Below, piece after piece: positions 27,060 to 38,655 of a DNA stretch of 64,000 nucleotides (its first letter is position 1; every line of letters begins with the position of its first letter). The position numbers were made by a program, and so were the translations under genes. The notes under the pieces are model-generated. The model was not told the DNA's origin. It did not search any database and saw only the letters and a program-made list of their open reading frames with translations. This stretch comes from an uncultured Slackia sp. (lineage in GTDB: Bacteria > Actinomycetota > Coriobacteriia > Coriobacteriales > Eggerthellaceae): assembly GCF_944321625.1 (NCBI RefSeq), contig NZ_CALUMA010000085.1, forward strand, positions 1-64,000, in the 5' to 3' direction.

Positions 27060-27506
27060 CTACTGTACGCCGCTTGAGCCGAAGCCGCCTTGGCCTCGTT
27101 CGGTTTCATCAAGGGAATCGACAACGTTCCACACAACGTTCTCTACCTTCTGAATCACAAGCTGAGCGATGCGGTCGCCCGGGTTGACCTCAAACGTGTT
27201 GTTCGGGTCAAGGTTGATAAGGGCAACTTTTAACTCGCCGCGGTAGTGGCTGTCAATGAGGCCTGGGGTGTTAAGGACGGTGACACCCTGCTTGATGGCG
27301 AGCCCGCTGCGCGGCTGCACAAAGCCTGCATAGCCTTCGGGGATGGCAACGGCCAGACCCGTGGAAACTAAGGCGCGCTCGAACGGAGCGAGCTCCACAT
27401 GCTCGATAGCACGAAGATCCATGCCCGCATCCCCCGGATAGGCGTACGAAGGAATGGTCACACCGTCCGTGAGACGGGTGATGTCGATGGAAAGCTGCTG
27501 GGTCAA
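27060..27506 (-). CDS. dut: dUTP diphosphatase
   Basis: Trimeric dUTPase that hydrolyses dUTP to dUMP + PPi, keeping uracil out of DNA and supplying dTMP synthesis. 148 residues with the five family motifs: PGDAGMDLRA, PRSGLAIKQG, NTPGLIDSHYRGELKVAL, GDRIAQLVIQ, and the C-terminal GQGGFGSSG arm. The start appears to be TTG at 27506 with AAGGCGG upstream. nrdR lies 144 bp upstream on the same strand, linking it to nucleotide supply. Confidence 0.96.
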   Translation of the reverse strand: MTQQLSIDITRLTDGVTIPSYAYPGDAGMDLRAIEHVELAPFERALVSTGLAVAIPEGYAGFVQPRSGLAIKQGVTVLNTPGLIDSHYRGELKVALINLDPNNTFEVNPGDRIAQLVIQKVENVVWNVVDSLDETERGQGGFGSSGVQ

Positions 27507-27650
27507 AGAAATCTACCGCCTTTCATAAGGTGGAGCAAAACAATATGCGGTGCTCTTGGGTAAATCCAATAATCATCTTTCGAATAGCCTCAAAAAGAAT
27601 CCATTGTCATCCATGAAGCCAATTGCCGAGGCGTCAAGGCCGTGGAGATG

Positions 27651-28103
27651 CTATTCCTCAAGGCCCTTCAGTGCTTCCTGAAATTCCTCAAGCGTCTGGA
27701 AATCCTTATAGACGCTAGCAAAGCGGATGTACGCCACGTCATCAAGACCCTTGAGATGCTCAAGAACGATATCGCCGAGATCCTTGGAGCGAATTTCCAT
27801 ACGACCTGAATTGCGGAGCTCAGACTCAATGGCATCGATAATCTCGGTCTTCTTCTCATTGGGGATGTTCGGTCGTTTGGCACAGGCGATGGAGATACCG
27901 CGGTACAGCTTTTCACGATCGAACACCTGGCTCGAACCGTCAGCTTTGATAACGATGATGGGGTTATCACCCAAGCGCTCATACGTAGTAAAGCGATTGC
28001 CGCATTTAAGGCATTCGCGGCGACGCCTAATGGAATTAAACTCGTCGGAAGGACGAGAGTCGACTACCTTGGATTCAGGATGGCCGCATACGGGACAGCG
28101 CAT
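27651..28103 (-). CDS. nrdR: Transcriptional repressor NrdR
   Basis: Nucleotide-sensing repressor of ribonucleotide-reductase genes. 150 residues from the ATG at 28103, which has GGAGG upstream (an ATG 12 bases earlier is less well spaced). The N-terminal zinc ribbon is CPVCGHPESKVVDSRPSDE with RRRRECLKCGNRFTTYER, followed by the ATP-cone domain from about residue 48 (VIKADGSSQVFDREKLYRG). No nrd genes are in the window. An imperfect palindrome surrounds its likely -10 box. Confidence 0.97.
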   Translation of the reverse strand: MRCPVCGHPESKVVDSRPSDEFNSIRRRRECLKCGNRFTTYERLGDNPIIVIKADGSSQVFDREKLYRGISIACAKRPNIPNEKKTEIIDAIESELRNSGRMEIRSKDLGDIVLEHLKGLDDVAYIRFASVYKDFQTLEEFQEALKGLEE

Positions 28104-28134
28104 TCGATCCTCCATTCGCTCAAGAGAGCATAGG

Positions 28135-28165
28135 GTTCAGTGCGTGCCTATCATACACGCTGAAC
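28135..28165 (-). promoter_or_regulatory. Imperfect palindrome around the nrdR -10 box
   Basis: On the minus strand GTTCAGCGTG and CACGCACTGAAC pair with one bulge around TATGAT. It does not match the known NrdR box. It may be an operator. Confidence 0.35.
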
Positions 28166-28257
28166 GGCAAAGTGGGGACCGAATGAGAAAAAACATGCGA
28201 CACACAAGAGGCTTTAAATGCACTCAATAAAGCGAAGTTGAGAACAAGCCGTCAAGA

Positions 28258-28548
28258 TTAGAGAACGAGAAGCATCCCAAAAACGAACGTTGCAATGCAG
28301 GAGCCCAGTACAGCGGGGATAGACGGGCAAATGCGACTTGCGCCAGATGCAGAGCCCTGCCCCATCGAAGAAGCGAAATCATCGATGCCAGAGGCATTGC
28401 AAAGAATTCGAAGATCATCGGAGAAATAGGACTGGCGCGCAGGCTGAGGGCGACGTCCGCCGGGAAGAACGGTAAAGCGGTCTTGGCCGTCATCAATCTT
28501 GAGGGCAGAGGTTCCGTCGATATACCTATTCATTTCACGAGCAGCCAT
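28258..28548 (-). CDS. Small SOS-controlled protein with C-terminal membrane anchor (candidate division inhibitor)
   Basis: 96 residues, not recognised as any named family. Residues 1-70 are polar (MAAREMNRYIDGTSALKIDD at the start, a short proline/arginine stretch near 32-38, SDDLRILCNASGIDDFASS near 43-61). Residues about 74-96 are hydrophobic (IPAVLGSCIATFVFGMLLVL), a tail anchor. GGAGG lies 9 nt upstream of the ATG at 28548. It is divergent from lexA across a region with three LexA boxes, and its TTGACA-17-TATTAT promoter has one box in the spacer. In Bacillus (YneA), Mycobacterium (ChiZ) and Corynebacterium (DivS) the gene next to or facing lexA is an SOS-induced division inhibitor. The same role is inferred here from position and topology only. 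Confidence 0.75.
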   Translation of the reverse strand: MAAREMNRYIDGTSALKIDDGQDRFTVLPGGRRPQPARQSYFSDDLRILCNASGIDDFASSMGQGSASGASRICPSIPAVLGSCIATFVFGMLLVL

Positions 28549-28566
28549 TTTGTTGCCTCCGAACTC

Positions 28567-28643
28567 TTGCAACGAACCTTTGTTCGGATATATAATAAAT
28601 CGCACAAAAGTTCGTGTCAATGATTTTCTCAAACATTTGTTCG
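28567..28643. promoter_or_regulatory. Divergent SOS promoter region with three LexA boxes
   Basis: Boxes fitting the Gram-positive consensus CGAAC-N4-GTTYG: CGAACCTTTGTTCG (28573-28586, perfect), CGCACAAAAGTTCG (28601-28614, one mismatch) and CAAACATTTGTTCG (28630-28643, matches on the minus strand). Minus-strand promoter: TTGACA (28615-28620), 17 bp, TATTAT (28592-28597), second box in its spacer. Plus-strand promoter: TTGCAA (28567-28572), 18 bp, TATAAT (28591-28596), first box in its spacer. Confidence 0.9.
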
Positions 28644-28787
28644 TCTCATTGACATGAAAGGCAGTAGGGCTGACGTCGCCCCGACGGGCCCGTCCACATT
28701 CGTGGGCGCGGGGCGTATGAACCTGCTGCATCGGCAGAACATGCCGGCGGCCTGACAAAGATAGCCGCATGAAAGGATTGGAGAACC

Positions 28788-29462
28788 ATGAACCAGCCCG
28801 AGGTCAAGAACACGAAAAAGATTACAAAGAAGCAGAAGGCCGTGCTTGATTTCATCGAGAAGACCATTGATGAAACCGGTATAGCTCCTACCGTGCGCGA
28901 CATTTGCGAGGGTCTTGGACTCTCCTCCCCCTCAACCGTGCACGTACACCTCAAAACCCTTGAGGACAAGGGGCTCATCCACCGTGATCCGCTCAAGTCA
29001 CGCTGCATCACCATCGTTGGCCATGACAGAAAGCCCGCGCCGGAGCCCGAGCCCGAAGATGCAATCGGCGTGGGGAGCTTCTCCAACGTGGTCAGCCTAC
29101 CCGTTGTAGGCAACGTCGCCGCCGGCATCCCCATCCTTGCCGAGCAGAACATCACCGAAACCATTCCGCTCCCGACCGATATCGTGGGCGATGCTAGTTC
29201 GTTCCTGCTCAAGGTGCGAGGCGATTCCATGATTGAAATCGGCATCAACGACGGCGATTTCGTGGCAGTCAAGCAGCAGCCCACCGCCAACAACGGTGAC
29301 ATCGTGGTCGCCATGGTTGAAGACGGCGCAACGGTAAAGAGGTTCTTCAAGGAAAACGGCTATATTCGCCTTCAGCCTGAGAATTCTTCGATGGAGCCCA
29401 TCATTGTGACCGAGAACGTCTCTATCGTCGGCAAGGTCACGGCGGTGTTCCGTCGCCTGTAG
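28788..29462 (+). CDS. lexA: SOS repressor LexA
   Basis: Repressor of the DNA-damage regulon; RecA filaments trigger its self-cleavage. 224 residues. The winged helix-turn-helix covers about residues 10-75 (APTVRDICEGLGLSSPSTVH). Cleavage is expected at Ala112-Gly113 (GNVAAGIP). The catalytic dyad is Ser147 in RGDSMIEIGI and Lys184 in ATVKRFF. The linker has a PEPEPEPED-like acidic stretch. Three LexA boxes lie upstream, so it is autoregulated. GGATTGGAGAACC precedes the ATG. A strong terminator follows. Confidence 0.97.
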   Translation: MNQPEVKNTKKITKKQKAVLDFIEKTIDETGIAPTVRDICEGLGLSSPSTVHVHLKTLEDKGLIHRDPLKSRCITIVGHDRKPAPEPEPEDAIGVGSFSNVVSLPVVGNVAAGIPILAEQNITETIPLPTDIVGDASSFLLKVRGDSMIEIGINDGDFVAVKQQPTANNGDIVVAMVEDGATVKRFFKENGYIRLQPENSSMEPIIVTENVSIVGKVTAVFRRL

Positions 29463-37539: not shown

Positions 37540-38559
37540 TTAGTTCTCGGACTGTTCAGGAGTGGCAACAGGGATATCGAAATGCTCGCGAACCTTTGCC
37601 TCAATCTCATCGCGCACATCGGGGTTGGTGCGCAGCATTTCCTTCGCGGCCTCGCGACCCTGCCCCAGGCGCTGTTCGCCATAGGTGTACCAGGCCCCGC
37701 TCTTCTTTACCACGCCGGCCTCAACGCCCATATCGACGATGCACCCTTCGCGAGAGATGCCCGTACCGTACATGAGGTCGAACTCGGCCTGGCGGAACGG
37801 AGGCGCAACCTTGTTCTTGACCACCTTCGCGCGAACGCGATTGCCTACGGGCTCGCCGCTCTTGCTCTTCAGCGTTTCGATGCGACGAATGTCGATGCGG
37901 ACGCTGGAGAAGAACTTGAGGGCACGGCCGCCCGTGGTGGTTTCGGGGCTGCCGAACATCACGCCGATCTTCTCGCGGAGCTGATTGATGAAGATGCAGG
38001 TGGTGTTGGATTTGGAAAGCGAGCCGGCGAGCTTGCGCAACGCCTGGGACATGAGGCGCGCCTGCAGACCGACGCTGCTATCGCCGATTTCGCCTTCGAT
38101 TTCCGCCTTAGGCACCAAAGCGGCCACCGAGTCGATGACGATGGCGTCAATGGCGTTGGAGCGAACGAGCATATCGCAGATCTCAAGCGCCTGTTCGCCC
38201 GTGTCGGGCTGAGAGATAAGCACCTCGTCGATATCGACGCCGAGGCGAGCGGCATAGGTGGGATCGAGCGCATGCTCGGCGTCAATGAACGCCACGATGC
38301 CGCCCAGCGCCTGAGCCTCCGCGAGAATCTGCAGGGCAAGCGTGGTCTTGCCGCTGGATTCAGGACCGTAGATTTCTACGATACGCCCGCGCGGCACTCC
38401 CCCGATACCCAAGGCGGCATCCAGCGGAAGAGCACCGGTGGGGATGACGCCCACCTCCAGGCTGTTGCCCTGGCCCAGCTTCATGATGGAGCCCTGACCG
38501 AACTTGCGCTCAATCTGTTCGGTGGTGAGCTCGAGAATCTTATCTTTATCTTGAGTCAT
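37540..38559 (-). CDS. recA: Recombinase RecA
   Basis: Strand-exchange ATPase and SOS co-protease that triggers LexA cleavage. 339 residues. P-loop GPESSGKT at 65-72, DAEHALDP, the L1/L2 DNA loops ([33 protein letters not shown]) and [13 protein letters not shown] are all present. AAGGAG precedes the ATG. A LexA box lies in its promoter. The tail is acidic (VATPEQSEN). recX follows. Confidence 0.99.
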
Positions 38560-38627: not shown

Positions 38628-38655
38628 TTATTACGAACGGATGTTCTCATGTCAA
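38628..38655 (-). promoter_or_regulatory. recA promoter with LexA box
   Basis: Minus strand TTGACA (38650-38655), 16-bp spacer, TAATAA (38628-38633). The spacer contains AGAACATCCGTTCG (38634-38647), the LexA box with one mismatch to the consensus. So recA is SOS-inducible like lexA. Confidence 0.88.

Follow-up and report, generated by a model that had tools for sequence, protein, structure and literature searches.

The 64,000-nucleotide stretch of Slackia DNA that we analyzed (the window) carries the gene order dut, nrdR, a 96-codon gene, lexA, and hflX. The lexA gene (224 codons; positions 28788 to 29462, plus strand) matched Pfam LexA_DNA_bind at 2.5e-22 and Peptidase_S24 at 5.4e-36, and its product is 94% identical to LexA of Slackia equolifaciens, which places the genome in Slackia. 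The 96-codon gene lies divergent from lexA at 28258 to 28548 on the minus strand and is preceded by a GGAGG ribosome-binding site (28555 to 28559, minus strand); 78 of 84 family members retain a Shine-Dalgarno sequence, with four to six matches. An ORF finder also proposed a 170-residue version starting at 28770, but we rejected this start because the extension runs across the promoter.

AlphaFold2 predicted no structure for residues 1 to 40 of the 96-residue protein (pLDDT 56 to 61), helices at residues 41 to 53 and 55 to 64, and a hydrophobic C-terminal helix at residues 77 to 95 (28264 to 28320, minus strand) with a pLDDT of about 96, which leaves one residue after the helix. Together with hydropathy, the model predicts this to be the only membrane-spanning helix. 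We did not detect a Pfam or NCBIfam domain in 38 members, and LysM was absent from them; searches of PHROGs and the PDB returned no matching family for the 96-residue protein. An earlier note on this DNA had described a 96-codon gene with GGAGG facing lexA, whose product has a C-terminal anchor and no known domain; the sequence and ORF list confirmed the gene, and the structure prediction, hydropathy, and domain searches supported the description of its product.

An independent promoter scan recovered the TTGACA-17-TATTAT promoter that the earlier note had assigned to the gene (28592 to 28620, minus strand; 11 of 12 matches). By itself, a single match of this type does not exceed what chance would give in this region, but its conservation does. 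Exact TTGACA was found in 76 of 86 gene-bearing loci versus one of eight measurable gene-less loci. The lexA promoter, TTGCAA-18-TATAAT (28567 to 28596, plus strand), faces and overlaps the promoter of the gene and is retained in gene-less loci. As the −35 element is lost from nearly all gene-less loci while the lexA promoter is kept, the TTGACA promoter belongs to the 96-codon gene and decays with it. The two promoters converge on one shared AT-rich −10 region (28567 to 28620), an arrangement conserved across the family, and polymerase at either promoter should therefore exclude polymerase at the other.

The LexA boxes reported in and around this promoter were also recovered, as three sites with at most one mismatch to CGAAC-N4-GTTCG that are conserved in lexA loci. 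Box 1 (CGAACCTTTGTTCG, 28573 to 28586, no mismatch) lies inside the spacer of the lexA promoter, box 2 (CGCACAAAAGTTCG, 28601 to 28614, one mismatch) inside the spacer of the gene's promoter, and box 3 (CAAACATTTGTTCG, 28630 to 28643, one mismatch) upstream of the gene's −35 element. At this threshold the 64 kb hold eight sites, three of them within 71 bp at lexA. Another of the eight (38634 to 38647) lies in the promoter of recA (37540 to 38559, minus strand), between TTGACA and an AT-rich −10 region as in the promoter of the 96-codon gene, and this like placement supports CGAAC-N4-GTTCG as a true LexA site. The genome-wide number of sites with at most one mismatch (167 per strand) is below that of the reversed control (244) and thus uninformative, so we used clustering and conservation of the boxes instead. 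Across 99 lexA loci, upstream regions contained a mean of 2.25 LexA-like boxes versus 0.016 in shuffles; successive boxes were spaced 26 to 29 bp apart, and their distance from the start codon hardly varied. In the window and in S. equolifaciens, about 130 bp more DNA separates the boxes from the lexA start than in the remaining Slackia genomes (28644 to 28787 in the window).

The earlier note had proposed an iterated profile search of lexA neighbors. Applied to ORFs opposite lexA in these 99 loci, which were sampled from the genus and family, this search, supplemented by position, motif, and promoter, found a lexA-divergent gene in 87, conserved together with LexA boxes; lexA-adjoining homologues, whose lack in related genomes the note had named as grounds against its proposal, thus do occur. 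Of these genes, 81 encode tail-anchored proteins. Eighty come from 84 profile matches less four duplicates (distinct loci, E < 0.01), and L067 was added by position and motif. The other six are reduced to a free-standing hydrophobic helix of 23 to 34 residues at an equal position and with an equal promoter (micro forms). The gene is absent from 12 of the 99 loci, among them two of 12 Slackia genomes, and is therefore dispensable. Direct searching turned up relatives of the 96-residue protein in three further genomes of Slackia. Scanning genome contigs with the single sequence detected none, because the protein diverges too fast, and the collection anchored on lexA was what succeeded. Weak profile matches elsewhere in other genomes (E of 1e-3 to 1e-2, several with internal stops) were discarded unless they adjoined lexA.

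The best conserved segment among 80 aligned members is the cytoplasmic motif G-[TS]-[SA]-A-L (G in 97%, A in 100%, and L in 90%), which reads G-T-S-A-L at codons 12 to 16 of the window gene (28501 to 28515, minus strand). It is followed in conservation by I-I-x-F-P, a G-x-x-x-G stretch ahead of the anchor, and the hydrophobic C terminus. All 81 tail forms end zero to five residues beyond the helix. The nearest relative of the window protein is 55% identical, compared with 94% for LexA, and gave a dN/dS of 0.25. Other pairs gave 0.09 to 0.53 where finite, with synonymous sites near saturation in several, and the micro forms, which are short sequences, gave 0.08 to 0.39. The lexA-divergent gene is fast-evolving and under purifying selection. 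Free-standing helices opposite lexA were observed at L024, L031, L049, L073, L078, and L080, which represent two genera of the family; a separate set, at L165 to L167 and L171, comes from another order of the class. Together these helices span 23 to 38 residues, and annotation has probably missed them.

Other members of the class carry a LysM domain at the equivalent locus. In families f4 and f10 of Slackia's order, which are probably Atopobiaceae and Coriobacteriaceae, the lexA-divergent gene encodes a [DS]G[TN]xAL...[LV]IEGG segment, an anchor, and LysM, and in other orders (f12 and f15 to f18) it encodes an anchor and LysM without the motif. Each of the five class members tested had a significant Pfam LysM match, as did one Firmicutes member. 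The NCBI YneA model (cutoff, 60 bits) scored 59.6 bits in one LysM-bearing class member, 0.4 below the cutoff, and 43.6 and 38.3 bits in two further class members. Tail forms and the LysM forms of the sister families have the N-terminal motif G-T/N-x-A-L in common, as seen in the similarity of YIDGTSALKIDDGQDRFTVLPGG in the window to YMDGNAALDLSCNTRPAFTVIRGG in a LysM form. With an N-terminal profile of the tail forms, three LysM forms scored 14.3 to 17.8 bits versus 11.2 for the best of 2508 scored shuffles, and the remaining nine fell inside the shuffle range. An hhalign comparison of tail and LysM forms gave an E of 2.8e-05, but over its 29 columns the probability reached only 74%. The anchors are too short for sequence comparison to decide homology; their position and a weak E/Q signature weakly suggest it.

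In a LexA tree of 107 loci, which represents a single gene and on which gene types were assigned by hand from locus inspection, the LysM-less families f1, f3, f5, f6, f8, and f9 formed one clade (support, 97/87) with LysM forms outside it. Family f7 is a LysM-less exception on a very long branch and of uncertain placement, and a second LysM-less group comprises the micro forms of f11, f13, and f14. The simplest history is probably one loss of LysM before Eggerthellaceae and their neighbors and another in the other order, with later shrinkage or loss of the gene. These comparisons indicate that the C-terminal anchor of the tail forms would correspond to the anchor preceding LysM in the sister families, and the best reading is that the 96-residue protein descends from the YneA/ChiZ type, with a tail anchor but no LysM, and does not form an independent class. 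The earlier proposal of a new class of SOS checkpoint protein consequently holds for an unrecognized lexA-divergent membrane protein but not for a new class, since LysM-bearing lexA-divergent relatives exist within the class.

Bacillus subtilis YneA reaches the divisome through a membrane helix that binds TM7 of FtsW, which requires residues K5, E6, F10, V11, and F14, and its LysM domain is required for the division block (PMC13396833). YneA without LysM gets to midcell and does not inhibit division. Three FtsW/RodA-family proteins are encoded in the Slackia genome. Of 81 tail forms, 58 have E or Q immediately before the helix. The expectation is 26% once the way of setting the helix edge is taken into account, a figure that supersedes an unconditioned 36% for E/Q within four residues. 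E/Q lies within four residues of the helix in 15 of 16 proteins with LysM and in 12 of the 13 micro forms; the window protein has P directly before the helix and no E/Q. The signature, which recalls YneA K5/E6, fits a retained targeting function, but such residues also commonly cap helices, which leaves it suggestive only. The N-terminal side of the helix is the more positive (mean, +1.35) and nothing follows the helix, which predicts a cytoplasmic N terminus.

We propose, with a probability of about 0.6, that Eggerthellaceae have in this gene their own version of the SOS division inhibitor encoded opposite lexA, one that has lost LysM and would reach FtsW via its helix; we infer its induction, topology, FtsW binding, and division block from sequence. 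DNA damage would lead to LexA cleavage and free the three boxes, switching on the gene and lexA together. The product would be inserted with its N terminus in the cytoplasm, its last 19 or so residues in the membrane, and almost nothing outside, and its helix would bind the septal synthase FtsW and delay septation, with the conserved cytoplasmic segment helping or itself supplying the block. Since B. subtilis YneA does not block division with its anchor alone, inhibition must work differently here or the role must have shifted. The micro forms hint that the helix may have become inhibitory on its own, and the conservation of the cytoplasmic segment hints that this part may assist; alternatively, the protein may have taken on another task. 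A new mechanism, in which a tail-anchored protein stops FtsW from the membrane or cytoplasm with no extracellular part and has shrunk in several lineages to a helix of 23 to 34 residues, is a tentative suggestion that we hold at somewhat less than even odds.

Among other explanations, an SOS checkpoint with a cytoplasmic target is unlikely but the most plausible; here the anchor would only tether the protein, and the G-T-S-A-L segment would bind a different division or envelope protein, such as FtsZ or one of the membrane tethers of FtsZ. Conservation of this motif above all other parts of the full forms, together with the disappearance of the extracellular part, favors such a target, but the motif is missing from the micro forms and from LysM forms in other orders. 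We consider it rather improbable that the product is an SOS membrane toxin of the TisB kind, with a helix that depolarizes the membrane and slows growth and a merely positional likeness to YneA loci. The micro forms, which barely exceed a hydrophobic helix, would suit a toxin, as would the tight repression suggested by three LexA boxes. The helix of TisB is charged, however, whereas the helices here are uniformly hydrophobic; moreover, most forms keep the conserved cytoplasmic part, and the N-terminal motif is common to LysM-bearing proteins at the equivalent locus.

That the gene is a functionless, decaying remnant of a YneA-type gene is very improbable. The loss of LysM, the fast divergence, and the missing gene in 12 of 99 loci could be read as decay, but dN/dS is well below 1 in every computed pair, micro forms included, the exact promoter persists in 76 of 86 loci, and the ribosome site is kept.

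Compared with known systems, the putative Slackia division inhibitor resembles B. subtilis YneA and Mycobacterium tuberculosis ChiZ in adjoining and diverging from lexA, in its LexA boxes, and in being a small single-pass protein, but it differs in lacking LysM, in having almost no extracellular part, and in its long cytoplasmic N terminus and C-terminal anchor. Staphylococcus aureus SosA is likewise lexA-divergent, small, and without LysM, and is SOS controlled (PMC6851548), as we infer for the Slackia gene. However, the anchor of SosA is N-terminal (residues 10 to 30), and its extracellular C terminus, which is needed for activity and turnover (PMC6851548), has no counterpart in any of the 81 tail forms. 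DivS of Corynebacterium glutamicum, compared by description rather than sequence, is a lexA-linked actinobacterial SOS division inhibitor also without LysM, but it has a predicted extracellular C terminus. Caulobacter SidA, from another lineage and again compared by description rather than sequence, is an SOS-induced small membrane protein that acts on the FtsW/FtsN complex, and its build is nearest to that of the 23- to 34-residue forms; we know of no relationship between SidA and the Slackia protein.

The novelty is in the build of the protein and, if division is stopped, in the mechanism. The YneA model needs the helix to find FtsW and LysM to block it (PMC13396833), but the gene, its promoter, and the boxes persist without LysM across a family of common gut bacteria, and several lineages retain hardly more than the helix. 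If the protein is a division inhibitor, the block comes either from the helix alone or from the cytoplasmic motif. Our literature search found no publication describing a lexA-divergent tail-anchored protein of Eggerthellaceae and no paper joining Coriobacteri*, LexA, and regulon; papers on Eggerthella, LexA, and SOS apparently do not concern this protein. Coriobacteriia, for which we found no SOS division inhibitor described, thus gain a candidate in a protein that domain libraries do not recognize. Downstream of its gene on the same strand lie nrdR and dut (27060 to 28548 with the 96-codon gene). A sequence scan found no terminator-like site between the gene and nrdR, so SOS transcription might reach nrdR and dut.
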